Source of the DNA: Lachnospiraceae bacterium
GTDB lineage: Bacteria > Bacillota > Clostridia > Lachnospirales > Lachnospiraceae
NCBI GenBank assembly: GCA_017480195.1
Contig: JAFVBE010000043.1
Span: forward strand, 1 to 45,013
Direction of reading: 5' to 3'
Length of the DNA: 45,013 nt
Of the stretch, positions 16,993 to 43,812 are shown one piece after another. Made by a program: the position numbers and the translations under genes. The notes beneath the pieces are model-generated. The model ran no database searches. It was not told the origin of the DNA and saw only the letters and a program-made list of their open reading frames with translations. How positions within the stretch are numbered: position 1 is the stretch's first letter; every line of letters begins with the position of its first letter.

Positions 16993-17067
16993 CGGGGTGT
17001 GGCTCAGCTTGGCTAGAGCGCCTGATTTGGGATCAGGAGGTCGCAGGTTCGAATCCTGTCACCCCGA
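16993..17067 (+). tRNA. tRNA-Pro (TGG)
   Basis: Acceptor arms CGGGGTG and CACCCCG pair fully, the anticodon loop is TTTGGGA, and the T arm carries GGTTCGAATCC. Discriminator A at 17067; CCA is not encoded. Confidence 0.96.
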
Positions 17068-17096
17068 CTAACTTAACACTTATATGCATATAACAT

Positions 17097-17167
17097 GCGG
17101 GTGTAGTTCAATGGTAGAACACTAGCCTTCCAAGCTAGATACGTGGGTTCGATTCCCATCACCCGCT
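17097..17167 (+). tRNA. tRNA-Gly (TCC)
   Basis: Acceptor arms GCGGGTG and CACCCGC, anticodon stem CTAGC/GCTAG with loop CTTCCAA, T arm GGTTCGATTCC. Short D loop typical of tRNA-Gly. CCA is not encoded. Confidence 0.96.
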
Positions 17168-17204
17168 TTTTATTTTCGCAAATTAAATATTGTGAAAATC
17201 AAAT

Positions 17205-17278
<74 letters not shown>

Positions 17279-17340
17279 TTTTCTTTATAGGAAAAACACC
17301 TATAAAGACAACGCTAAGCTAAGGTTGCACGGCGTTTTAT

Positions 17341-17415
17341 GGTGGGTATGGCGCAGTTGGCTAGCGCGCCAGATTGTGGCTCTGGAGGCCGAGGGTTCGA
17401 GTCCCTCTATCCACC
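17341..17415 (+). tRNA. tRNA-His (GTG)
   Basis: Anticodon stem CCAGA/TCTGG with loop TTGTGGC. The extra G at position -1 (17341) is encoded and faces the discriminator C (17415), the identity element of tRNA-His. CCA is not encoded. Confidence 0.96.
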
Positions 17416-17470
17416 CTGTATATAAGTGGCATACTTATATATCCTCTCGGGATATCCCGATTATGAATAT

Positions 17471-17542
17471 TGGGCTATCGCCAAGCGGTAAGGCACAGGA
17501 CTTTGACTCCTGCACTCGTTGGTTCGAATCCAACTAGCCCAG
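17471..17542 (+). tRNA. tRNA-Gln (TTG)
   Basis: Acceptor arms TGGGCTA and TAGCCCA, anticodon stem CAGGA/TCCTG with loop CTTTGAC, discriminator G at 17542. CCA is not encoded. Confidence 0.96.
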
Positions 17543-17559
17543 CTAGTTAAAATAAATAC

Positions 17560-17632
17560 GGGCCACTAGCTCAGTCGGTAGAGCACTTGACTTTTAATCA
17601 AGTTGTCGGGGGTTCGATTCCCCCGTGGCTCA
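17560..17632 (+). tRNA. tRNA-Lys (TTT)
   Basis: Acceptor arms GGGCCAC and GTGGCTC (one G-U pair), anticodon stem CTTGA/TCAAG with loop CTTTTAA, discriminator A at 17632. Last of the six-gene cluster. CCA is not encoded. Confidence 0.96.
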
Positions 17633-17783
17633 CTAAAAGAAAATTATTCTTTTTATCAATATTCAATTTTTAATAAATGTAGAATATCCAAAAAAGTATT
17701 TTAATAGTATAATTAAGTTTTTCTTTTTTAATTCTCACTGTTGTTTTGCAAATTAGATTAGGTTATGTAAATGTAAAAATTGA

Positions 17784-29988: not shown

Positions 29989-30819
29989 ATGAGTAAAGCA
30001 GATGATTTATTTATCAAAATGTGTACAGACATTATTGAAAACGGATATAGTACAGAAGGTGAGAAGGTAAGACCGAAATGGGAGGATGGCAGCTTTGCAT
30101 ACACCATTAAACGCTTTGGGGTAGTCAACAGATATAATCTGGCTGAGGAATTCCCTGCCATTACCTTAAGAAAAACCTATATCAAGTCGGCGGTTGATGA
30201 GATGCTTTGGATATGGCAGAAAAAATCTAACAATGTCAATGACTTAAAAAGTCATATATGGGATGCTTGGGCAGATGAGGATGGCTCAATAGGCAAGGCG
30301 TACGGCTATCAGATGAGTGTAAAGCATAAATATAAGGAGGGAATGATGGATCAGGTTGACAGGGTTATATTTGAACTGAAAAACAACCCTTACAGCAGAA
30401 GAATAATGACGAATTTATATGTTCATCAGGATCTTAGCGAGATGAATCTGTATCCATGTGCATATAGTGTAACCTTCAATGTAACAGGGGACAAGCTTAA
30501 TGCTGTACTGAATCAGCGTTCTCAGGATGTACTTGCTGCAAATAACTGGAATGTAGTTCAGTATGCCGTACTCGTTTATATGATGGCACAGGTGACGGGC
30601 TTCAAGCCGGGAGAATTGGTTCATGTCATAGCGGATGCACATATCTATGACAGACACATTGATATAGTGAAAGAGCTTATAGCAAGACCGACTTATCCGG
30701 CGCCGAAATTCACGCTTAATCCTGACATAAAGGATTTTTATGATTTTACAACTGATGATATAACTATAGAGGACTACAAGACAGGACCTCAGATAGAGAA
30801 TATACCTATAGCAGTATAG
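29989..30819 (+). CDS. thyA: thymidylate synthase (ThyA)
   Basis: ThyA methylates dUMP to dTMP using methylene-tetrahydrofolate and releases dihydrofolate. The 276-residue protein has the catalytic Cys157 in LYPCAYS, the phosphate-binding RSQDVLAANNWN and the C-terminal DIKDFYDFTTDD. GAAAGGA lies upstream of the start. folA follows 20 bases later and regenerates the folate, the classical pairing. It is transcribed away from the XRE pair. Confidence 0.96.
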   Translation: MSKADDLFIKMCTDIIENGYSTEGEKVRPKWEDGSFAYTIKRFGVVNRYNLAEEFPAITLRKTYIKSAVDEMLWIWQKKSNNVNDLKSHIWDAWADEDGSIGKAYGYQMSVKHKYKEGMMDQVDRVIFELKNNPYSRRIMTNLYVHQDLSEMNLYPCAYSVTFNVTGDKLNAVLNQRSQDVLAANNWNVVQYAVLVYMMAQVTGFKPGELVHVIADAHIYDRHIDIVKELIARPTYPAPKFTLNPDIKDFYDFTTDDITIEDYKTGPQIENIPIAV

Positions 30820-30839
30820 TGTAAAGGAGAAGATACATT

Positions 30840-31346
30840 ATGGATTTGATAGTTGCAGTAGATAATAATTGGGCGATAGGCAGCAAGGGAGATTTGTTGG
30901 TTTCAATACCTGAGGATCACAAGTTTTTTAGAAATATAACTATGGGTGGTGTGGTTATACTTGGAAGAAAAACACTTGCTACATTCCCGAACGGACTGCC
31001 GCTTAAGGGCAGGGATAATATAATATTTTCAAAAAATCCGGATTATAATGTGGATGGTGCGACAGTTGTTCATTCTAAGGAGGAACTCTTTGAATGCCTT
31101 AAGAAGTATGAGAACAGAGAAATATTTGTAATAGGTGGGGGCAGCATATATGACATGCTTTTTGATTATTGCAAATATGCACATGTGACAAAGATTAATT
31201 ATAATTACGAGGCGGATACATATTTTCCTAATCTTGACAAACTGGATAACTGGAGGGTGGTTGCAGACAGTGAGGAGCATACATATTTCAGCGTTGAATA
31301 TTATTTTTATAAATATGAGAACACGAATCCTAAGAACTTTGAATAA
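30840..31346 (+). CDS. folA: dihydrofolate reductase (FolA)
   Basis: FolA reduces dihydrofolate to tetrahydrofolate with NADPH and is the target of trimethoprim. The 168-residue protein shows AVDNNWAIGSKGDLL at the N-terminus, the active-site acidic residue in IPEDHKFFRN, the NADPH-binding MGRKT-like ILGRKTLATFP, and FVIGGGSIYD. Length is typical. AAAGGAG precedes ATG 30840. It forms an operon with thyA. Confidence 0.95.
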   Translation: MDLIVAVDNNWAIGSKGDLLVSIPEDHKFFRNITMGGVVILGRKTLATFPNGLPLKGRDNIIFSKNPDYNVDGATVVHSKEELFECLKKYENREIFVIGGGSIYDMLFDYCKYAHVTKINYNYEADTYFPNLDKLDNWRVVADSEEHTYFSVEYYFYKYENTNPKNFE

Positions 31347-31552: not shown

Positions 31553-32650
31553 ATGGGAGATATATTAGTTACGACAGGTTCAGTTATTGAGGGGTATGAG
31601 ATTACAGAGTATCTGGGCTTTGTAAGTGGTGAGACGGTTTTAGGTTCTAATTTTCTTAAAGGCTTTGTAGCTGGTGTTACAGAGGCGTCAGATTCTGAAA
31701 GTGAGAAGCTCACAGCCAATCTTGAACAGGTAAATGGAATTGCTTTAGAGAAATTAAAGAGGGTTGCAGCTAAGAAGGGTGCAGACGCTATTGTTGGATT
31801 GCAGCTTAATTATACTCAGTTTGCCAACTATTCTGTCGGAACAATTGCATCCGGTACAGCAGTAAAGCTGATTAAAAAGGAGAATGTTGAGCAGGTTGTA
31901 TCCAAGGATTTATATGTAATGAATTACTATAACAGACTGGTGCCAAGACCTGTGAAAGTTTTATTGAACGGTACTAACAAGGGTGTTACCATATCGGCAT
32001 GGTTCTATAATTATAACATGGATGACATCAAGGCTATTCGTGCAGATGTTGAGCTGACTAATCTTTATGAAGAGAAGCTGTTACTTAAAAACCTTGATTT
32101 CGTATTTGAAAAGGGAAATATAACTCAGATAGAATCAAATGAAATTGAATGTAAATTGCCTGCTAAGGACATATTATTGATAAAGGATTCAAAGGTAACA
32201 ATATCGAAATATGTTACAAGCAGAGGCGTTTTCGCGGTAAATGATATACCGGTCAATGTTACGATGCCTATGCACAGACTTATTGCTCTTAAGGAGAAGA
32301 GAGGTATAGATGCTGTAGAGAAATATAAGACTGATGGTATGATATGGACTTGTAACTGTGGTTATGTCAATGAGGCTGGTGCTGATGAATGTATTATCTG
32401 TTCGCGTAAGCAGGAGGATATGAAGAGTACATCCAAGTTCAATCCTGATGAAATGATTGCTAAGATGCAGACTAAGGAATATGTAATTGAGATTAAGGAT
32501 GTTCTTATGGAATACATAAAGGATATTGACAGCGAGTACAGAATGGAGCTTCTGGAGATTATGGAATCCGGATTGCAGTACGAAAAAACTCGTGGCAATA
32601 TGAAAGATACCGTTATTGAAAAGGTTGAAAAAGTCTTTGAAGGACATTAA
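31553..32650 (+). CDS. YbjQ-like domain protein with a C-terminal zinc ribbon
   Basis: A 365-residue cytoplasmic protein in three parts. Residues 1-105 form a YbjQ (UPF0145) domain, recognisable by TTGSVIEGYEITEYLGFVSG and KKGADAIVGLQLNY. The middle (110-255) is beta-rich and has no known family. Residues 265-285 form a short zinc ribbon with C267, C269, C280 and C283 (WTCNCGYVNEAGADECIIC), of the type used to bind proteins or nucleic acid. YbjQ proteins form pentamers; their role is not known. It starts an operon with the two following genes (30-base gap). Confidence 0.82.
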   Translation: MGDILVTTGSVIEGYEITEYLGFVSGETVLGSNFLKGFVAGVTEASDSESEKLTANLEQVNGIALEKLKRVAAKKGADAIVGLQLNYTQFANYSVGTIASGTAVKLIKKENVEQVVSKDLYVMNYYNRLVPRPVKVLLNGTNKGVTISAWFYNYNMDDIKAIRADVELTNLYEEKLLLKNLDFVFEKGNITQIESNEIECKLPAKDILLIKDSKVTISKYVTSRGVFAVNDIPVNVTMPMHRLIALKEKRGIDAVEKYKTDGMIWTCNCGYVNEAGADECIICSRKQEDMKSTSKFNPDEMIAKMQTKEYVIEIKDVLMEYIKDIDSEYRMELLEIMESGLQYEKTRGNMKDTVIEKVEKVFEGH

Positions 32651-32680
32651 AAGTTAGATTAGGTTTGGGGTGAGATTTAC

Positions 32681-35167
32681 ATGGGTTCCGGTCTTAGTAT
32701 GGCTAGTGTTAATAAAATTAAAGAATTAGCAGCTCAGAGAGAATACAGCTTGGCTTTGGATATTATTGACAGTCAGGACCTATCAAAATCTCTTAATCCA
32801 CAGTTTTTACGACTTTGCGGCGAGGTTTTTATTAAGTCAAAAAGGTATGAGGATGCAAGAAAAACTTTACTCATGGCGCGTAGACTTACACCTGCAGCAA
32901 AGAGAATAATATTCTCATTAGTTGATTTATATATGAGAATGGGATATAAATCCCTGGTTGAAAAATATTATGAGCTCTATATGTTTGATGCAGATGAGAA
33001 CAATGAGGAGACCAAACAGTTAAATTATATCTATGACAAATATTGTGGTAAGTCACCTAAGGAATTAGAAGAATATCTTATCCCGTATTATATTAATAAT
33101 ATGGAATATGATTGGAGCTTTGAAACTTTTCTGCTTCTTTGCATGGAAGATAAGGATGATGTTGACGAGGTTACTAAGAAATCATTAACAGGTGAATATC
33201 TTGCAACATTTAAAAATAGCAAGAATAGTCAGATAATTGCTTCAATAACAGATGATGAGAGCATAGCAGAAAACCTCTTCTATAATTTTAGTAAGACAGT
33301 GGAGGAGGACAATGATCCTAAGCAGGAGAAGCTTCGTAAGGAAGAGAATAAATTATTTGAAGCGGATGAGCTTAGAATTCATCCACAGGAAGCAGAGATT
33401 ATAGATATTATTGATGACGAGGAAGAAACAAAGGATGACCTTTCGCCTGAGGATGCTTCCGAAGAGAAGGAGAAAAAGCCGGGATTTTTCAAGAAGCTAT
33501 TTGTAAGGGGGAAGAATAAAGAAGCGTCTGAGACAGAGGAAGAAGCTACAGATGGTGAGGAAAAATCTGAGGATGAAACTGAGCCTGTTGAGAAAGCTGC
33601 TGTGCCTGAGGCAGAGGCAAAGCCTGAGACAAAGTCGGATATAGAGGACAAGTCTGAGGAAACTACGGAGACTATTAATGAAGATGTTCAAGCTGTAGAT
33701 AATTTATCTGAGGTTGAAACTGAAGAAGAAGCTGATGAAGAAACTTCCGAGCCTGTAGAAAATATAACAGAGACTGAGTCAGAAGTTTCTGATAATGAGG
33801 ATTTTGAAATGCATAAGAATGTTGATGAAATAAATATGAATATGGAGAAATTCTCTGATGATGATTTTTCAGAAGAAGAAATCGGTGATGAATTTGCGGC
33901 TGAATCTGATACTATTGAGGACTTACATTTAAAGGAAGATGTTTCTGATGAAGATAATGAGCAGACAGATGAAGAACAGACAGATAAAAAATCCGGAGTT
34001 TTATTTGAGTCTGCTGACATATCTATTGATGCTGACGAAGATGAAAATTATGATATAGATGATTTTTCAACTACTGTAAATGATGAATTTGGCTCAATGG
34101 ATACACCGATTGAAAATGATGTTGAAGAGCAAGAGGATACGGAAGCGGTTACAGAGGAGAAAGATGACGAGATATATGAAGATGCAGGAAATGAATTTGA
34201 AGAATCTGTAGAAACTGAAGAGGAAATAAAAACTGCGTCTGAGATAGAAGAAGCTGTTGAGACAGAGATTGAGGAAGAAGTCAGGGAAGCAATCGAAGTT
34301 GAGACAGAAACTGAAGAAGCAATTGAAGATGAGGTAGGAGACGAGGCTGCATTTGAAGAGATAACCGAGGCTGAACCGGATACTGAGCAGATTGTTGAGG
34401 AAGCAGCCGAGGCAGAGCCGGAGATTGAAGAAGCAGTAGAAGAAATACCTGAGGAAGCAGCCGAGAACGAGGTAGGAGACGAGGCTGTATTTGAAGAGAT
34501 AATCGAGGCTGAACAGGATACTGAGCAGATTGTTGAGGAAGCAGCCGAGGCAGAGCCGGAGATTGAAGAAGCAGTTGAAGAAATACCTGAGGAAGCTACT
34601 GATACAGAACTTAAAATTGAAGAAGCAGTTGAGACAGAGTCTGATAATATATTTGAAGAAATAACCGAGATTGAACCGAAAGTTGAGGCTGAGGCGGAAG
34701 CAGAAGCAAGAGCCGAGACGGAGCCGGAGGTTGAGGAAACAGTCGAAGAAGAATATGAAGAGGAAGATTTAAGCGAGCTTTTCAGACTTGAAAAGGAAAA
34801 AATCAAGAATGAGAACAGGGAGAAGAAGCTTGAATTTCCGGTGTTCCGTTCGTCGTTATTCCCGAATTATCATAATGACAAGCCTGAGGTTGAGAATAAT
34901 TTCAATGAGATTATGAGCGATAGTCAAAGCAAGATAAGTGAAAACTTTGAGAAGGAAGCGCAGTTACAAAAGGAAACTGAGGCACTTTTGGCATCACTTG
35001 GAATTGACTTAGGAAGTACAAAGAGTACAGTAACATCAACTTCAAGTATTAAGATAGATAGAAGTGAAGAAAAGGCAAATTCTATTTCACGAAAGGAATT
35101 AAAAAATTCCTTAAAGATAGGTGAAGATAAGAAAATAATTTTAAGGAAAATGAAAGAATATAGATAA
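32681..35167 (+). CDS. very acidic TPR-like scaffold protein
   Basis: An 828-residue cytoplasmic protein. Residues 1-200 are helical and TPR-like (EYSLALDIIDSQDLSKSL, KRYEDARKTLLMARRLTP). From about 215 to 715 the sequence is extremely rich in Glu, Asp, Ala, Ser and Thr and probably disordered; two tandem copies of a 46-residue unit lie at 34331-34606. The C-terminal 110 residues become basic again. GGGGTGAG precedes ATG 32681. It sits between a YbjQ-type protein and a Lys/Ala/Glu coiled-coil protein. A scaffold role is inferred, not shown. Confidence 0.8.
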   Translation: MGSGLSMASVNKIKELAAQREYSLALDIIDSQDLSKSLNPQFLRLCGEVFIKSKRYEDARKTLLMARRLTPAAKRIIFSLVDLYMRMGYKSLVEKYYELYMFDADENNEETKQLNYIYDKYCGKSPKELEEYLIPYYINNMEYDWSFETFLLLCMEDKDDVDEVTKKSLTGEYLATFKNSKNSQIIASITDDESIAENLFYNFSKTVEEDNDPKQEKLRKEENKLFEADELRIHPQEAEIIDIIDDEEETKDDLSPEDASEEKEKKPGFFKKLFVRGKNKEASETEEEATDGEEKSEDETEPVEKAAVPEAEAKPETKSDIEDKSEETTETINEDVQAVDNLSEVETEEEADEETSEPVENITETESEVSDNEDFEMHKNVDEINMNMEKFSDDDFSEEEIGDEFAAESDTIEDLHLKEDVSDEDNEQTDEEQTDKKSGVLFESADISIDADEDENYDIDDFSTTVNDEFGSMDTPIENDVEEQEDTEAVTEEKDDEIYEDAGNEFEESVETEEEIKTASEIEEAVETEIEEEVREAIEVETETEEAIEDEVGDEAAFEEITEAEPDTEQIVEEAAEAEPEIEEAVEEIPEEAAENEVGDEAVFEEIIEAEQDTEQIVEEAAEAEPEIEEAVEEIPEEATDTELKIEEAVETESDNIFEEITEIEPKVEAEAEAEARAETEPEVEETVEEEYEEEDLSELFRLEKEKIKNENREKKLEFPVFRSSLFPNYHNDKPEVENNFNEIMSDSQSKISENFEKEAQLQKETEALLASLGIDLGSTKSTVTSTSSIKIDRSEEKANSISRKELKNSLKIGEDKKIILRKMKEYR
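34331..34606 (+). repeat. tandem 138-bp repeat inside the acidic gene
   Basis: Copies at 34331-34468 and 34469-34606 encode two 46-residue units starting EVGDEAAFEEI and EVGDEAVFEEI, with only a few base changes. The unit is a multiple of three, so copy number can change without breaking the frame. Confidence 0.9.
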
Positions 35168-35203
35168 TATGTCGGATGATGTTTCTGAAAGGGGGAAAAC
35201 ATA

Positions 35204-38128
35204 GTGGCTGTTGATCAAAGAGAAGCATTAATTGCTGCTGTTAGAGCACAGGTGGAAAAAGAAAAGGCGGCTAAGGCCGCAAAGCTAAAGAAAGAGCAGG
35301 AAGCTGCCAGAATGGCAGGGGTTGACATTTCTGATTCGTCTGACTCTGACGATAAGCCAAAATATAAGACATTATCAGCCGAAGATTTAGCTAAAATTGA
35401 GGAGAAGAAAAGGCGTAAATATGCTGCTGAACATGGACTCGAGTACGAGGAGCCAAAGGCAGAAGAACCTGAGCCTGAGACGCCAAAGGCAGAGGCACCG
35501 AAAGCTGAAGAGAAGAAAGCTGAGACTAAGGTAGAGGAGAAGGCTGAAAAAGAAGCTGAGGGACTTGGCTTAAGTGTTGGTATTCAACCTGATAAATCAG
35601 GTAAAACTTTATCAGGTGCCGATTCTAAGGATGGCGGCCTTGGAGGTAAGAAGACCGATAGCAAGAGTGGTCTTGGCTTAAAGCTTAATATGGGTGATAC
35701 CAAGAAGACAGAAGTTAAGTCTGAGGAGGACAATGCTGCAGAAGCTAAAGCTGCAGAGGATAAGGCTAAAGCTGAGGCAGAAGCGAAGGCTGCTGCTGAG
35801 AAAGCTGCTGCAGAAAAAGCTAAAGCTGAGGAGAAGGCTAAACTTCGTCCGGAGAAGGTTGTCGGAGGTTCTGCTTCAGTCAAGATTATAGGTGATGATG
35901 CTTCTGACGACGAGGGCGTAAGCTTCACTAAGGATGGCAATACAACTGTTATATCTGATGAGGCAGGCTGGCAGGCATCCAAGGCAGAAGATAAGAAAGC
36001 TAAGGGAGACGATTCCATAGATATCGTGCCTGATAGAGCTAAGGCTGTCAAAGCAGGCGGAAGCATGTATGATATTGATGAGGACGATGATTCTTTAGGT
36101 GCAGAGATATCCAAGTTTGCTGATTATGATGATAAATCCTCTGACAAACAGACTGAACAGACTGAGGAAGTTAAGCAGAGCAAGACGGATATAGCTAATC
36201 AGAAACTCGCAGAGGAAGAGGCGCGCAAGAAGGCTGCAACAGAGGCAGCTAAGAAGAAGGCAGAGGAAGCTTCAGGTAAGAAGGTATCTGCTGCAGAAGA
36301 AGCAGTTAAGAAGTCTGAGGCTCAGAGAAATAAATTAAAGGCGGCTGAGCAGAGTGCTAATGAGAGAGAAAGACGTATAGCTGAAGCTCAGGCAAAGCAG
36401 CGTGCAGAAGCGGCAGCTAAGAAGAAAGCAGAAGAAGCTGCCAAGAAGAAAGCTGAAGAGGAAGCTAAGCGTAAAGCTCTTGAGGAAGAGCGTAAGAAAG
36501 CTGCTGAGGAAGCAAGGCGTAAGGCTGAGGAGGAAGCAAGAGCAAAGGCTAAGGCTGAGGCTCAGAAGGAAGTTGATGCAGCTAAGAAAAAATCAGATGA
36601 AATTGAGAAGAAGCTTGCGGATGCCAAGAAAGCCGAAGAGGAAGCAGCTAAGAACAGCGAAGCTTTGAAGAAGACTCTTGAGGAGAATAAGAAGAAGCGT
36701 TTTGATGAAGCTGTAAAAGAAAATGAAAAAGAAGAGGCTTTGAAGAAAGCGGAGGCTGAGGCTAAGGGTAAGGCTGAAGAGGCAGCTAAGAAGAAAGCTG
36801 ACGAACGCGCAAAGAAGAGGGCGGAATTTGAGGCTAAGGCTAAGGCTGATGCAGACGAAAGAGCTAAGCTTTTGGATGATGCCAAGAAAGCAGAGGAAGC
36901 AGCTAAGAAGGCTGTAGCTGCAGCACAAAAGGCTGTAGAAGCAGCTAAAAATGCAGTTGAGGAGGCAGCTAAGAAGCTTGAAGAAGCTAAGTCTAATGAG
37001 ACTGCTGCTGCTAAGAGCGTAGAGGAAGCTAATAAAAAGGTTGAGGCAGAGACTAAGAATGTTGAAGAGATAGGCAAGAAGATTGAGGCAGAGACAAAGA
37101 AAGCAGAAGAAGCTGCTAATAAGTTAAAAGCTGAGGAGGAGGCTGCAGCTAAGGTTGATGCAGCGGATATTGAGAAGGCTGTATCTGCGGCAAAGGCGGA
37201 GCTTGATGAATTTGTAAAGGGCAAGACAGATGCAGAGAAGCTTAGAAAAGAAGCTGAAACTGCTGATAATAAAGCATTAGAAGAAGCACAGAGTGCTCTT
37301 GATAAGGCAAAGAAGAGTACAGAAGATATAGCTAAGGAAGCTGAAGAAGCAAAGAAAGCTATAGCAGAAGCAGAGAAGGCTGTCAAGGCTGCTGATACAT
37401 TGAAGCTTGATGTCAAGACATTTAATGCAGGCAGACTTCCTATAGCAGCATCATATCTTGTAAAATACACTAATGTTGATGTACTTGGTGATAAGATTGT
37501 ATCAACCTTTGAGGATGTATCTAAAAAGACCGGAGCCGATAGAAATATGCTTTTAATGGGTGAGCATGGATTTGGTCTTACAAGCGTAGGTGAGGACTTT
37601 GCAAGAAGCTTCTATGATATGGGGGTATGTAAGGCAAAGACCATAGCTAAGATTAAGGCTTCTGCACTTAACAAGGTTAAGCTTGCAGATGCTATGAATA
37701 AGCTTAAAGGCGGCTGTCTCGTAGTAGAAAGCTCAGGACTTATAGCTGCTGACAGACTTAGAGAATTACTTACACTTACGGCTCCTGAGAATAATGATAT
37801 TATAATGATACTTACGGGTGAGCAGGATTCCATCAAGAGACTTTTAAGAGATGTTAAGGAAAGCACAGGAAAGTTCGAGAATACCATCAAGATTAACAGT
37901 CTTAAGGAGAAGGATATGGTTGGTATTGCCAAGGGCTATATCGAGCAGAGAGGCTTCAAGGCTGATAATGACTTAGATGGAACATTGAAGAACATGCTTA
38001 TGGCTATGGAATCCGGCAATATCGACAGGATGTTAAAGGCTGTTGATGATGCCATAACAAAATGTGAAGAAAGAGAGAAATCAAAGGGCAGCAACGATAA
38101 AAAGTTGTTAGCCGCTGATTTCAAATAA
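35204..38128 (+). CDS. giant Lys/Ala/Glu coiled-coil protein with a degenerate AAA+ domain
   Basis: A 974-residue protein, GTG start with AAGGGGG upstream. Residues 1-180 mix charged and Pro/Glu segments; about 320-740 is almost pure Ala, Lys and Glu (AAKKKAEEAAKKKAEEEAKR style), forming long alpha-helical coiled coil. The C-terminal 230 residues resemble CbxX/SpoVK-type AAA+ ATPases. The Walker A region reads GEHGFGLTS (786-794), with Leu where the invariant Lys should be, and the Walker B strand reads CLVVESS (838-844), without the usual Asp-Glu. ATP hydrolysis is therefore unlikely. A terminator ends the operon 24 bases later. Confidence 0.82.
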   Translation: MAVDQREALIAAVRAQVEKEKAAKAAKLKKEQEAARMAGVDISDSSDSDDKPKYKTLSAEDLAKIEEKKRRKYAAEHGLEYEEPKAEEPEPETPKAEAPKAEEKKAETKVEEKAEKEAEGLGLSVGIQPDKSGKTLSGADSKDGGLGGKKTDSKSGLGLKLNMGDTKKTEVKSEEDNAAEAKAAEDKAKAEAEAKAAAEKAAAEKAKAEEKAKLRPEKVVGGSASVKIIGDDASDDEGVSFTKDGNTTVISDEAGWQASKAEDKKAKGDDSIDIVPDRAKAVKAGGSMYDIDEDDDSLGAEISKFADYDDKSSDKQTEQTEEVKQSKTDIANQKLAEEEARKKAATEAAKKKAEEASGKKVSAAEEAVKKSEAQRNKLKAAEQSANERERRIAEAQAKQRAEAAAKKKAEEAAKKKAEEEAKRKALEEERKKAAEEARRKAEEEARAKAKAEAQKEVDAAKKKSDEIEKKLADAKKAEEEAAKNSEALKKTLEENKKKRFDEAVKENEKEEALKKAEAEAKGKAEEAAKKKADERAKKRAEFEAKAKADADERAKLLDDAKKAEEAAKKAVAAAQKAVEAAKNAVEEAAKKLEEAKSNETAAAKSVEEANKKVEAETKNVEEIGKKIEAETKKAEEAANKLKAEEEAAAKVDAADIEKAVSAAKAELDEFVKGKTDAEKLRKEAETADNKALEEAQSALDKAKKSTEDIAKEAEEAKKAIAEAEKAVKAADTLKLDVKTFNAGRLPIAASYLVKYTNVDVLGDKIVSTFEDVSKKTGADRNMLLMGEHGFGLTSVGEDFARSFYDMGVCKAKTIAKIKASALNKVKLADAMNKLKGGCLVVESSGLIAADRLRELLTLTAPENNDIIMILTGEQDSIKRLLRDVKESTGKFENTIKINSLKEKDMVGIAKGYIEQRGFKADNDLDGTLKNMLMAMESGNIDRMLKAVDDAITKCEEREKSKGSNDKKLLAADFK

Positions 38129-38151
38129 CATTAATTAGTAATTGAAAAAAG

Positions 38152-38200
38152 ATGTGCTGATGTTTATAATGATTATGTTATGAATATCGGCACATTTTTA
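38152..38200 (+). terminator. intrinsic terminator of the 31.5-38.1 kb operon
   Basis: ATGTGCTGAT (38152-38161) pairs with ATCGGCACAT (38186-38195), with one G-U pair and a 24-base interior, followed by TTTTTATTT. Confidence 0.8.
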
Positions 38201-38305
38201 TTTGTATTAAAATATAATGTTTTTGTCAGTTTCAGTTGATTTGAAAGATGCTAATTAATTGATATTAAATTGATTACATAGAGATAAAAGATTAGGAGTA
38301 CGAGT

Positions 38306-39313
38306 ATGGTTAATATTGATATAGGAATTGATTTGGGAACCTGCAATACCGTAATATACATAAAGGATAAGGGTATAGTTGTAAATCAGCCGTCTGTAGT
38401 TGCATATGAAGTAAAGACCAAGAAGATAATTGCGGTCGGTACCAAGGCTAAGAAGATGATTGGAAAAACTCCTGAGGAGATAGAGGTGGTAAGACCTATT
38501 ACCAAGGGAGTTATATCCGATTACACGCTGACCGAGCGAATGATTAAGGCATATGTAAGAAATGCCATAGAGCAAAGAAAGATATGGGGCAAGCCTACCA
38601 TATGTGTCTGCGTGCCAAGCGGTGTAACACAGGTTGAGAAAAAAGCAGCTTGTGACGCGGTATATCGTACAGGTGCAAAGAAGGTCTATGTACTTGAGGA
38701 GCCTTTTGCGGCAGCTATAGGAACTAATGTTGATATTGATAGTCCTAAGGGGCATATGTTTGTGGATATAGGTGGTGGAACTACTGATATAGCTGTAGTG
38801 TCAAAAGGCGCAATAAGCAGCAGTAAGTCTATAAGGGTGGCAAGCTGTGACTTTGATGAGGCAATAATTAAATATCTTCGTAAAAAATACAGAGTTGAAG
38901 TGGGGGATGTATCGGCTGAACAGCTAAAGATTGAAATCGGTTCAGTATATCCGCGAGCTCAGGATGCACTTGGATATGCGAAGGGTAAGGAGCTTATGAA
39001 GGGACTTCCCGTGAAGCTTCCGGTTCATTCCTCCGAGATAGAAGAGGCTACAGGTGAAGTGGCAGACCAGATAGTTGATGCAATCAAAAATGTGCTTGAG
39101 GTTACTCCGCCTGAGCTGGTTAATGATATAGCCGAATTTGGAATTGTTTTATCCGGCGGAGGCAGTAAGATATACGGTATGGATATACTTATTGAAGAAA
39201 AAACAGGCGTAAGGGTAAGGAAGATGGAGAAACCTGAGCTTGTTGTCGCAACCGGAGCAGGTACCGCAAGAAAATATGTGGCGGAAGAGGTTGTGATTAC
39301 CTCGGATGTGTAA
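38306..39313 (+). CDS. MreB/Mbl-like bacterial actin
   Basis: A 335-residue actin-family protein that forms filaments under the membrane and guides cell-wall synthesis in rod-shaped cells. The phosphate-1 loop is DLGTCNTVIYI (9-19; Cys replaces the common Ala), the phosphate-2 loop is DIGGGTTDIAV (from residue 154), and the adenosine motif is VLSGGGSKIYGMD. All ATP-binding parts are intact. There are no mreC or mreD genes beside it, which fits a separate Mbl-type paralogue. It follows the coiled-coil operon but behind a terminator, so it probably has its own promoter. The membrane-binding loop cannot be judged by eye. Confidence 0.92.
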   Translation: MVNIDIGIDLGTCNTVIYIKDKGIVVNQPSVVAYEVKTKKIIAVGTKAKKMIGKTPEEIEVVRPITKGVISDYTLTERMIKAYVRNAIEQRKIWGKPTICVCVPSGVTQVEKKAACDAVYRTGAKKVYVLEEPFAAAIGTNVDIDSPKGHMFVDIGGGTTDIAVVSKGAISSSKSIRVASCDFDEAIIKYLRKKYRVEVGDVSAEQLKIEIGSVYPRAQDALGYAKGKELMKGLPVKLPVHSSEIEEATGEVADQIVDAIKNVLEVTPPELVNDIAEFGIVLSGGGSKIYGMDILIEEKTGVRVRKMEKPELVVATGAGTARKYVAEEVVITSDV

Positions 39314-39314
39314 A

Positions 39315-39661
39315 TTTTATATATCAAAAGGTCGGTTAGGCGGAGAGGTATACTCTAATTGAGGTATCGCACCAAGCAGGTGGCAGACAGGAAGCAGGCA
39401 GTTACGCAACACGCAATCAATTTGCTAAATCAGTCAACTCGGATTCTATTGAATTTGCACGAAATCGTGAACTCGCTTCGCTCAGACAGCACGATTTCTG
39501 AGCAATTCAATATGAACCACTCTTTGCTGATTTTAAGCAAATTGTGCGAATCGTTACTATAACTGCCTGCTTCCTGTCTGCCACCTGCCTGGTGCGATAC
39601 CTCATTACAGCATACCCGCCTAACCGACACGCTGCGCGTATTTGAGGCATGATATATAAAA
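39315..39661. repeat. 347-bp long-hairpin (palindromic) element
   Basis: The stretch folds back on itself over most of its length. Arms: 39315-39326 with 39650-39661 (12 of 12), 39331-39343 with 39616-39628 (13 of 13), 39361-39404 with 39560-39603 (43 of 44), and 39461-39469 with 39490-39498 (9 of 9), plus weaker pairing between. The loop is near 39470-39489. It starts right after the mreB-like stop codon. There is no credible gene inside. The form is that of a MITE-like or REP-like palindromic element. Confidence 0.85.
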
Positions 39662-39754: not shown

Positions 39755-40000
39755 CTATATATAGAGTAGCTTATACAGATAGTTTGTAATGTTTGTGCTG
39801 TAATGACCTGTTGATTCAAGTCCTATTTTTACTTTTGTAAAATCATTTGAATCAAGAGATGAAAGGATTGTGGTGTAAAGTGTTTCAAATCCTTCTTTTG
39901 TGTTTGGAATACGAAGGGAATCAGTAATGATAACCCCATCAGAATCAATGATACAGCAATCATGTTTTGATTTGGCTACATCAATGCCAACAAATAACAT
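39755..40000 (-). pseudogene. IS110-family transposase, N-terminal fragment
   Basis: The 81 residues begin MLFVGIDVAKSKHDCCIIDS, the standard start of IS110 transposases, whose RuvC-like DEDD domain uses the Asp of GIDVAK (D7) and the Glu in GLESTGHYS (E62). Full-length members have about 400 residues, so about 80 percent is missing, including the C-terminal Tnp domain with the catalytic Ser. The start has AAAGGAGTGA upstream on the minus strand and looks intact; the break is at the 3' end near 39755, next to the hairpins. It is not active by itself. Confidence 0.88.
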
Positions 40001-40888: not shown

Positions 40889-42088
40889 ATGGCAAAAAAA
40901 GTAGTTTTAGCAGGCGCATGTCGTACAGCAATCGGTACTATGGGCGGTTCATTAAGTACAACACCGGCATCAGAGCTTGGTGCAATCGTAATTAAGGAAG
41001 CACTTAATAGAGCAGGTGTTGCTCCTGAGAAGGTAGACCAGGTTTACATGGGCTGTGTAATTCAGGCAGGACAGGGACAGAATGTAGCTCGTCAGGCATC
41101 AATTAAGGCAGGTCTTCCTATTGAGGTTCCTGCAGTTACCATCAATGTAGTCTGTGGTTCAGGTCTTAACTGTGTAAATATGGCTGCTCAGATGATACAG
41201 GCAGGAGATGCAGATATCGTCGTAGCAGGTGGTATGGAGAATATGTCAATGGCTCCATTTGCACTTCCACAGGGACGTTACGGATATAGAATGACTTGGC
41301 CAAGCCAGAGCCAGGGCGCTCTTGTTGATACAATGGTTAAGGATGCTCTTTGGGATGCATTCAATGACTATCATATGATAAAGACTGCTGATAATGTAGC
41401 AGAGCAGTGGGGACTTACAAGAGAAGAGCTTGATGTATTCGCTGCAAACAGCCAGCAGAAGGCAAGCAAGGCTATCAAAGACGGTGCATTCAAGAAAGAA
41501 ATCGTACCTGTAGAGATTAAGAAGAAGAAGGAGACAGTTGTATTTGATACAGACGAGGGAGTTCGTGATGGCGTTACACCTGAGTCACTTGCTAAGCTTC
41601 GTCCACTTAATCCTGATGGATATGTTACTGCAGGTAACGCTTCAGGTATCAATGATGGTGCAGCAGCAGTTGTTGTAATGTCAGAGGAGAAGGCTAAAGA
41701 GCTTGGCGTTAAGCCTATGGCTACATTTGTAGCAGGTGCTCTTGCAGGTGTTGCTCCTGAGATTATGGGTATCGGTCCTGTAGCTGCAACTAAGAAGGCT
41801 ATGGCTAAGGCTGATATGAAGATTGAAGACTTCGATATTATCGAGGCAAACGAGGCTTTCGCTGCACAGTCAGTAGCAGTTGGAAAGGACCTCGGAATAG
41901 ATGTAGACAAGCAGCTTAATCCAAATGGTGGTGCTATCGCATTAGGACATCCTGTTGGAGCTTCAGGCTGCCGTATCCTTGTTACACTTCTTCACGAGAT
42001 GGAAGCAAAAGGTGCTAAGACAGGTCTTGCTACACTGTGTATCGGTGGTGGTATGGGCTGTGCAACCATCGTAAAGAGGGAGGACTAA
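40889..42088 (+). CDS. thl: acetyl-CoA acetyltransferase (thiolase)
   Basis: Thiolase joins two acetyl-CoA to acetoacetyl-CoA, the entry step of butyrate formation. The 399-residue protein has the acyl-accepting Cys89 in [16 protein letters not shown], the His of GHPVGASG, and the C-terminal catalytic Cys in [15 protein letters not shown] lies upstream. It opens the operon thl-crt-hbd-bcd, with crt only one base downstream. Codon usage is smoother (GC-richer third positions) than in accessory genes, which fits high expression. Confidence 0.96.
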
Positions 42089-42089
42089 T

Positions 42090-42881
42090 ATGGAATTCAT
42101 AACATATGAGCAGGATGGATTTGTAGGTATTGTTACGATTAACAGACCTAAGGCACTTAATGCTTTGAATAGTCAGGTGCTTGAAGAAATCGAAGCTACT
42201 TTCGATGCCATTGATTTAGAAAATACAAGAGCGGTTGTTCTTACAGGTGCAGGTGAGAAATCATTTGTAGCAGGTGCAGATATAGGAGAGATGTCAACAC
42301 TTACTAAGGCTGAGGGTGAGGCATTCGGTAAAAAGGGTAATGATGTGTTCAGAAAGATTGAGACCTTCCCTATCCCTGTTATAGCAGCTATAAACGGCTT
42401 TGCTTTAGGCGGTGGCTGTGAGATATCAATGAGCTGTGATATCAGAATCTGCTCTGATAATGCCGTATTTGGACAACCTGAAGTTGGACTTGGTATTACA
42501 CCGGGATTTGGTGGAACACAGAGACTTGCGCGCTTAGTTGGTGCAGGTATGGCTAAGCAGATGATTTATTCTGCAAGAAATATCAAGGCTGACGAGGCAT
42601 ATCGTATCGGACTTGTTAATGCAGTCTACACTCAGGAGGAATTACTTCCACAGGCTAAGAAACTTGCAGCAACTATCGCTGCAAATGCTCCGATAGCAGT
42701 ACGTAACTGCAAGAAGGCTATCAATGATGGTCTTGAGGTTGATATGGATGCCGCAATCGTTATCGAGGAGAAATTATTCGGTGACTGCTTCGAGACAGAA
42801 GACCAGAAGGCAGGTATGGGTAATTTCTTAGAGAAGGACAAGGAAAAGAAGCTTAAGGTAGTTCCTTTCCAGAACAAGTAA
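42090..42881 (+). CDS. crt: 3-hydroxybutyryl-CoA dehydratase (crotonase)
   Basis: Crotonase removes water from 3-hydroxybutyryl-CoA to give crotonyl-CoA. The 263-residue protein shows the CoA-binding FVAGADIGEM, the oxyanion-hole GFALGGGCEISMSCD with a catalytic Glu, and FGQPEVGLGITPGFGGTQRL with the second Glu. GGGAGGA precedes the start inside the end of thl. The start lies one base after the thl stop, so the two are coupled. Confidence 0.95.
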   Translation: MEFITYEQDGFVGIVTINRPKALNALNSQVLEEIEATFDAIDLENTRAVVLTGAGEKSFVAGADIGEMSTLTKAEGEAFGKKGNDVFRKIETFPIPVIAAINGFALGGGCEISMSCDIRICSDNAVFGQPEVGLGITPGFGGTQRLARLVGAGMAKQMIYSARNIKADEAYRIGLVNAVYTQEELLPQAKKLAATIAANAPIAVRNCKKAINDGLEVDMDAAIVIEEKLFGDCFETEDQKAGMGNFLEKDKEKKLKVVPFQNK

Positions 42882-42894
42882 ATATTGAAATTAA

Positions 42895-42928
42895 TTAGGA
42901 AAGGGGCATTAATTTGCTTCTTTCCTAA
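42895..42928 (+). other. intercistronic hairpin between crt and hbd
   Basis: TTAGGAAAG (42895-42903) pairs perfectly with CTTTCCTAA (42920-42928) over a 16-base loop. No T run follows, so it probably protects or processes the mRNA, or weakens read-through, rather than stops transcription. Confidence 0.6.
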
Positions 42929-42972
42929 TGTAAGTTTAGCTTATAATTAAATATTTTATAGGAGGAAGAAAA

Positions 42973-43812
42973 ATGAAAGTAGGAGTTATTGGTGCCGGAA
43001 CAATGGGTTCAGGTATTGCACAGGCTTTCGCCATGACTGATGGTTATGAGGTAAGACTTTGCGACATTAAGGAAGAATATGCTGAGGGTGGAAAGGCTAA
43101 GATTCAGAAGAATATAGATTTCCTCGTTGGTAAAGAGAAGATTACAGCAGAAAAAGGTGCTGAGATTATGGGTAAGATTACAACTGGTCTTAACAATATC
43201 TGTGCTGATTGTGATCTTATTATAGAGGTTGCTCTCGAGAAGCTTGAGATTAAGCAGAATATCTTTAAGGAGCTTTCAGCTATGGTTAGCAAGGATTGTA
43301 TCTTTGCTTCAAATACTTCATCACTTTCTATAACTAAGATTGGTGAGGGCTTAGACAGACCTCTTATAGGTATGCACTTCTTCAATCCTGCTGACAGAAT
43401 GAAGCTTGTTGAGGTTATCAAGGCTGAGAATACTCCACAGGAGATGGTTGATAAGATTAAGGCTATCGCTGTTGAGATAGGCAAGACTCCTGTTGAGGTT
43501 AAGGAAGCTCCGGGATTTGTTGTAAACAGAATCTTAATCCCTATGATTAATGAAGCTATCGGCGTTCTTGATGCAGGTACTGCTTCAGCAGAGGACATTG
43601 ATATAGCTATGCAGCTTGGTGCTTCACATCCGATGGGACCTCTTCATCTCGGTGATTTAATCGGACTTGATATCTGTCTCGCTATCATGGAGGTTCTTTA
43701 CACTGAGACTAAGGACGAGAAGTATGCTCCACAGCCACTCCTTAAGAAGATGGTTGCTGACGGCAAGCTTGGAAGAAAGACAGGCGAAGGTTTCTTTAAC
43801 TACGCAAAATAG
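42973..43812 (+). CDS. hbd: 3-hydroxybutyryl-CoA dehydrogenase
   Basis: Hbd reduces acetoacetyl-CoA to 3-hydroxybutyryl-CoA with NAD(P)H. The 279-residue protein has the Rossmann motif GAGTMGSGIAQAFA (7-20), the catalytic His and Glu in IGMHFFNPADRMKLVEV, and PGFVVNRIL. A GGAGG site lies upstream. It stands between crt and bcd with gaps of 91 and 39 bases, and is part of the butyrate operon. Confidence 0.96.
   Translation: MKVGVIGAGTMGSGIAQAFAMTDGYEVRLCDIKEEYAEGGKAKIQKNIDFLVGKEKITAEKGAEIMGKITTGLNNICADCDLIIEVALEKLEIKQNIFKELSAMVSKDCIFASNTSSLSITKIGEGLDRPLIGMHFFNPADRMKLVEVIKAENTPQEMVDKIKAIAVEIGKTPVEVKEAPGFVVNRILIPMINEAIGVLDAGTASAEDIDIAMQLGASHPMGPLHLGDLIGLDICLAIMEVLYTETKDEKYAPQPLLKKMVADGKLGRKTGEGFFNYAK

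Follow-up and report, generated by a model that had tools for sequence, protein, structure and literature searches.

The usual MreB operon has the order radC-mreBCD-minCD (excerpts of PMC6827917), and mbl occurs in the order mbl-flhO-flhP or mbl-flgF-flgG-flgJ in Bacillus, Eubacterium and Roseburia (excerpts of PMC3720852). The magnetosome set, as far as excerpts of PMC3905215 describe it, includes the actin MamK, which together with the acidic tether MamJ aligns magnetosomes, and the TPR scaffold MamA. We analysed a 45,013-nucleotide stretch of DNA from a Lachnospiraceae bacterium (contig JAFVBE010000043.1 of assembly GCA_017480195.1; hereafter the window), in which three genes, A, B and C, precede a gene for an MreB-family actin, D. 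The D product is of the same family as the MreB of radC-mreBCD-minCD, and it likely has the same role with MreCD, but it is not encoded beside mreC, belongs to a separate clade and has A, B and C as neighbours. Mbl is the nearest clade to D, with the same family assignment and nucleotide motifs, although D lies at another locus, shares only about 50% identity with the Mbl of its own genus and often coexists with it. The magnetosome set would be the nearest functional analogy, since there too an actin occurs together with acidic and TPR proteins, but the likeness is one of analogy only, and D scores far under the MamK cut-off.

The four genes are all on the forward strand: A at 31553..32650 (365 aa), B at 32681..35167 (828 aa), C at 35204..38128 (974 aa, with a GTG start) and D at 38306..39313 (335 aa), separated by 30, 36 and 177 bases, respectively. 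Upstream of A are thyA and folA (29989..31346, forward strand), which are conserved there and were used as controls. The genome to which the window belongs is a 2.4 Mb assembly in 63 contigs, 85% complete and with 5.5% contamination. We found no description of the A-B-C-D set in the open-licence full-text literature, among the matches listed.

Membrane-bound antiparallel filaments and a role in rod shape characterise the MreB/Mbl family. The D protein matched Pfam MreB_Mbl (PF06723) over its whole length (E 3.3e-117, 391.4 bits against a cut-off of 27) and passed the curated cut-off of TIGR00904 (370.2 against 365.75 bits). Its phosphate-binding motifs were well kept among relatives, with DLG[TS] in 33/33, the phosphate-2 motif in 32/33, and two looser patterns in 31/33 and 27/33. 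In a tree of 70 proteins rooted with E. coli MreB, D proteins formed a single clade (support 100/99), which was sister to, and outside, the Mbl clade (100/98 for D plus Mbl). With a subset of 36 proteins, topologies uniting D with all mreC-linked MreB proteins were rejected (32 log units worse, p-AU 3e-5), as were those uniting it with only the less diverged of them (44 log units, p 2e-4), whereas grouping with only the fast-evolving ones was weakly rejected (16 log units, p 0.035). The tree and these constrained topologies indicate that D, being neither Mbl nor mreC-linked MreB, represents an additional lineage within the MreB family rather than an old mreB that has moved. We discarded D as an ortholog of mreC-linked mreB, since it is not beside mreC and does not group with it in the tree, as Mbl, since it is outside the Mbl clade and not beside flhO/flhP, and as MamK, since its NCBIfam score was 85.1 bits against a cut-off of 400. 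The mreC-linked MreB proteins of Lachnospiraceae (L103-L117, L190) were on long branches, with 29-39% identity to whichever Mbl or D query matched them best, as if they were under relaxed or changed constraint.

The original prediction proposed conservation of the gene order across genera as its own check. We surveyed loci with profiles of A and D, of the N-terminal part of B and of the C-terminal part of C; in all 35 whose sequence runs for 7 kb or more beyond A, A-B-C-D were present on the same strand and in the same order, as they were in 28/28 loci at a stricter limit of at least 9.5 kb. These 35 loci comprise the window, 25 from a search of GTDB representatives and nine others, two of which repeat contigs already counted; the remaining A-bearing loci end too soon to show the order. 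With A as the query, contigs of GTDB representatives yielded 47 loci, three of them matching the YbjQ domain only. Full-length A was present in 9 of 200 Lachnospiraceae genomes, corresponding to 8 of 199 genera, and the other 64 genomes matching A did so more weakly, mostly through the YbjQ domain and including a few distant stand-alone relatives. Seven of the eight sampled genera with full-length A contained the complete cluster (at least seven genera overall, to which the loci from named genomes may add more). In the eighth, G062, the contig stops 136 bases after A, and B and C were not seen; a D-type gene, whose product falls in the D clade of the tree, is found apart from A, where it follows a yebC-like gene rather than C and precedes a ygiQ-like one. 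Genomes G247 and G166 have other genes between A and B, with the B-C-D order intact. Among what was sampled, full-length A was seen only in Lachnospiraceae; because the order was retained and A was confined in this way, the descriptions of the locus as lineage-specific and of D as an MreB-like actin without mreC or mreD beside it both hold, and in the window's genome mreC was located on a contig other than that of D.

We then compared the mreC loci. All 11 of those from genomes with A-B-C-D lacked mreB, as in the window's genome, but contained mreC, mreD and mrdA, usually flanked by radC upstream and by min and rodA genes downstream, whereas mreB preceded mreC in 16 of 18 hand-chosen loci from other Lachnospiraceae. 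Because mreB is missing from all 11, it is plausible that D stands in for it. Among the 200 Lachnospiraceae genomes, 152 had two MreB matches, 44 had one and four had none. Mbl is also present in many of the genomes with A-B-C-D, and the gene beside flhO in them is Mbl, not D. Conversely, G005 and G062, two well-covered assemblies in which mreC is present, yielded no MreB at E 1e-30 other than a D-type gene; in the one-contig assembly of G005 (L094, L144) neither mbl nor a close flhO, its usual neighbour, was found. The Mbl proteins of the genera with A-B-C-D formed one clade (99/91), with those of G244 and G238 beside it. These two genomes (L118, L119, L162, L163) have mreC, mreD and mrdA with no mreB beside them, and Mbl was the only MreB found, suggesting that Mbl alone could serve the Rod complex where present, as may occur there, which is a point against D filling the MreB role. 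A simple history, judging from the gene tree, may be that mreB was lost first and D was gained later with A, B and C; alternatively, D may have been lost in G244 and G238.

Gene A encodes, in order, a YbjQ domain (31562-31870, forward strand), supported by its fold and by a Pfam score above the cut-off (YbjQ_1, E 5.6e-23), a beta domain, a zinc ribbon of the form W-x-C-x-C...C-x2-C (32345-32410, forward strand) and a helical C-terminal domain, agreeing with the earlier description of a YbjQ-like protein with a zinc ribbon. Compared with YbjQ proteins (DUF74; PF01906), A has approximately 260 extra residues, corresponding to the beta domain, the ribbon and the helical tail. Stand-alone relatives of similar length, with 26-27% identity, occur in G087, G203, G217 and G534 (L080-L082, L185), the last having two near each other, and within the stretches read no MreB was found beside any of them. 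The B protein likewise proved to be acidic and TPR-like: it has a TPR-like N-terminal domain (32681-33388, forward strand), an acidic linker with a net charge of -174 and a C-terminal motif, LASLGI (34988-35005, forward strand). A profile of 17 B sequences matched consensus TPR chains at 3.8e-8, and Pfam TPR_14 was found in 14 of the 17 members, all matches being weak (best 4.5e-5). As whole proteins, neither B nor C matched a Pfam family at E 0.1.

The C protein starts with a conserved N-terminal tip, DQREALIAAVRAQVEK (35213-35260, forward strand), whose pattern was present in 28 of 32 copies, and continues as a coil rich in K, E and A. This coil is charge-neutral and so does not support the charge complementarity that had been proposed between B and C. 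The predicted C-terminal AAA+ fold was present, as a CbbX-type domain (37394-38125, forward strand), but its nucleotide motifs are degenerate. The Walker A sequence, GEHGFGLT (37559..37582, forward strand), has no lysine, and this residue was absent in all 33 aligned copies, whereas GxxxxGK[ST] was present in four of five distant relatives. In Walker B, GGCLVVES (37709..37732, forward strand; compare GGVLFIDEA in relatives), the first place of the acidic pair is E, or D in one copy, and the second is N or S in 33/33. With the lysine of Walker A and the glutamate of Walker B both absent in 33/33 copies, this is probably an inactive binding domain; C thus differs from CbbX-type AAA+ ATPases in lacking these residues and in being fused to a long coil.

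We examined whether the four genes evolve at correlated rates. Across 28 loci, the distances of any two of the four genes showed partial correlations of 0.47-0.70 once thyA and folA had been accounted for, with 0/1000 permutations as high for each pair; for folA, with thyA and D accounted for, the values were 0.28 with A, -0.28 with B and 0.03 with C. Because the correlations among A-D exceed those with the folA and thyA controls, they favour a shared constraint, although the 28 loci are not independent.

Our leading reading, which we put forward tentatively and at somewhat below even chances, is that A-B-C-D is a vertically inherited cluster of one clade of related gut and rumen Lachnospiraceae, in which D stands in for MreB and is co-expressed with its partners A, B and C. 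Since the genomes read keep mreC, mreD and mrdA without mreB beside mreC, D would most likely act as the MreB of the Rod complex, polymerising with ATP at the membrane, and would thereby have a part in cell shape. The A, B and C products would most likely be cytosolic partners of D, with putative contacts among the four proteins. In C, an extended helical rod would join a conserved, sticky N-terminal tip to an ATP-dead AAA+ domain that serves in binding or in assembling a ring. B would act as a hub through its TPR domain, its long acidic tether carrying a short conserved motif for binding at the end, and A would be a YbjQ-type adaptor with a zinc ribbon, perhaps oligomeric. The joint task of the three would be to bundle, position or tune the filament of D, and we infer that A-B-C is a scaffold on it. 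A more specific proposal, that this is a separate MreB-family cytoskeletal system in which D took over cell shape with a purpose-made A-B-C scaffold within one clade, is one that we hold more doubtfully. The original prediction of a scaffold-like cluster beside an MreB actin is therefore partly confirmed as an observation and partly supported in its interpretation.

It is also conceivable, if on the unlikely side, that A, B and C form a complex of their own, for instance a stress or protein-handling scaffold, and that D is a shape actin with its own promoter that merely lies next to them. The claim that the neighbours are kept together stood in the 35 long loci, but most loci also retain thyA and folA upstream as well as thl, the downstream neighbours (ygiQ-like or thl-crt-hbd genes) being conserved too, and shared descent thus accounts for part of the A-D linkage; in G062, moreover, the D type adjoins a ygiQ-like gene away from A, and the distant A-like proteins of G087, G203, G217 and G534 had no MreB in the stretches read. 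The 177-base C-D gap contains a promoter-like site and a terminator-like hairpin (38142..38197), both as consensus matches only, and the shared terminator that had been suggested was not clearly supported. Against such a passive neighbourhood, the C-D gap is only -1 to 45 bases in 9 of 35 loci (by longest open frame), B-C-D remain in order in G247 and G166 despite the genes between A and B, and the rate correlations with D are higher than those with folA.

A filament of D with A-B-C that positions cargo unrelated to the wall, by analogy with the alignment of magnetosomes by MamK and MamJ, appears improbable to us. The combination of an actin with TPR and acidic proteins resembles the make-up of MamK, MamA and MamJ in the excerpts of PMC3905215, and in many of these genomes Mbl could take care of the wall, but no MreB other than the D type was found in G005 and G062, both of which have mreC, and D passes TIGR00904 while failing the MamK model. 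Least credible by far is that D is the ordinary mreC-linked mreB, relocated, with accidental neighbours. The lack of mreB at all 11 mreC loci would fit such a move; however, D groups with Mbl, its union with all mreC-linked MreB was rejected, although less decisively so for the fast-evolving rows, and G244 and G238, whose Mbl proteins branch beside those of the A-B-C-D genera, have neither mreB at mreC nor D.

Under our leading reading of D as the MreB of the Rod complex, A-B-C-D may be a lineage-specific addition to the cell-shaping machinery. If so, it would show that a single lineage can refashion the partners of a bacterial actin: the mreB beside mreC would be gone, with a sister lineage of Mbl in place and three partners of its own, one of them a retired AAA+ machine. 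The cluster would then offer, in uncharacterised bacteria of the gut and rumen, a delimited set of genes with which to test what MreB requires for shaping a cell.

Downstream of D, the window contains a 45-base inverted repeat (98% identity, arms separated by 155 bases) and the remains of an IS110 transposase (39360-39604 and 39755-40000). Of the 196 loci compared, two, both from the window's own genome, contained an exact copy of a 23-base core of the repeat. Further on, 40889-43812 contains thl, crt and hbd, which we take to be a butyrate-type gene cluster and whose downstream position is kept in many relatives; in several relatives, a ygiQ-like radical SAM gene is directly 3' of D. Six tRNA genes are clustered at 16993-17633.
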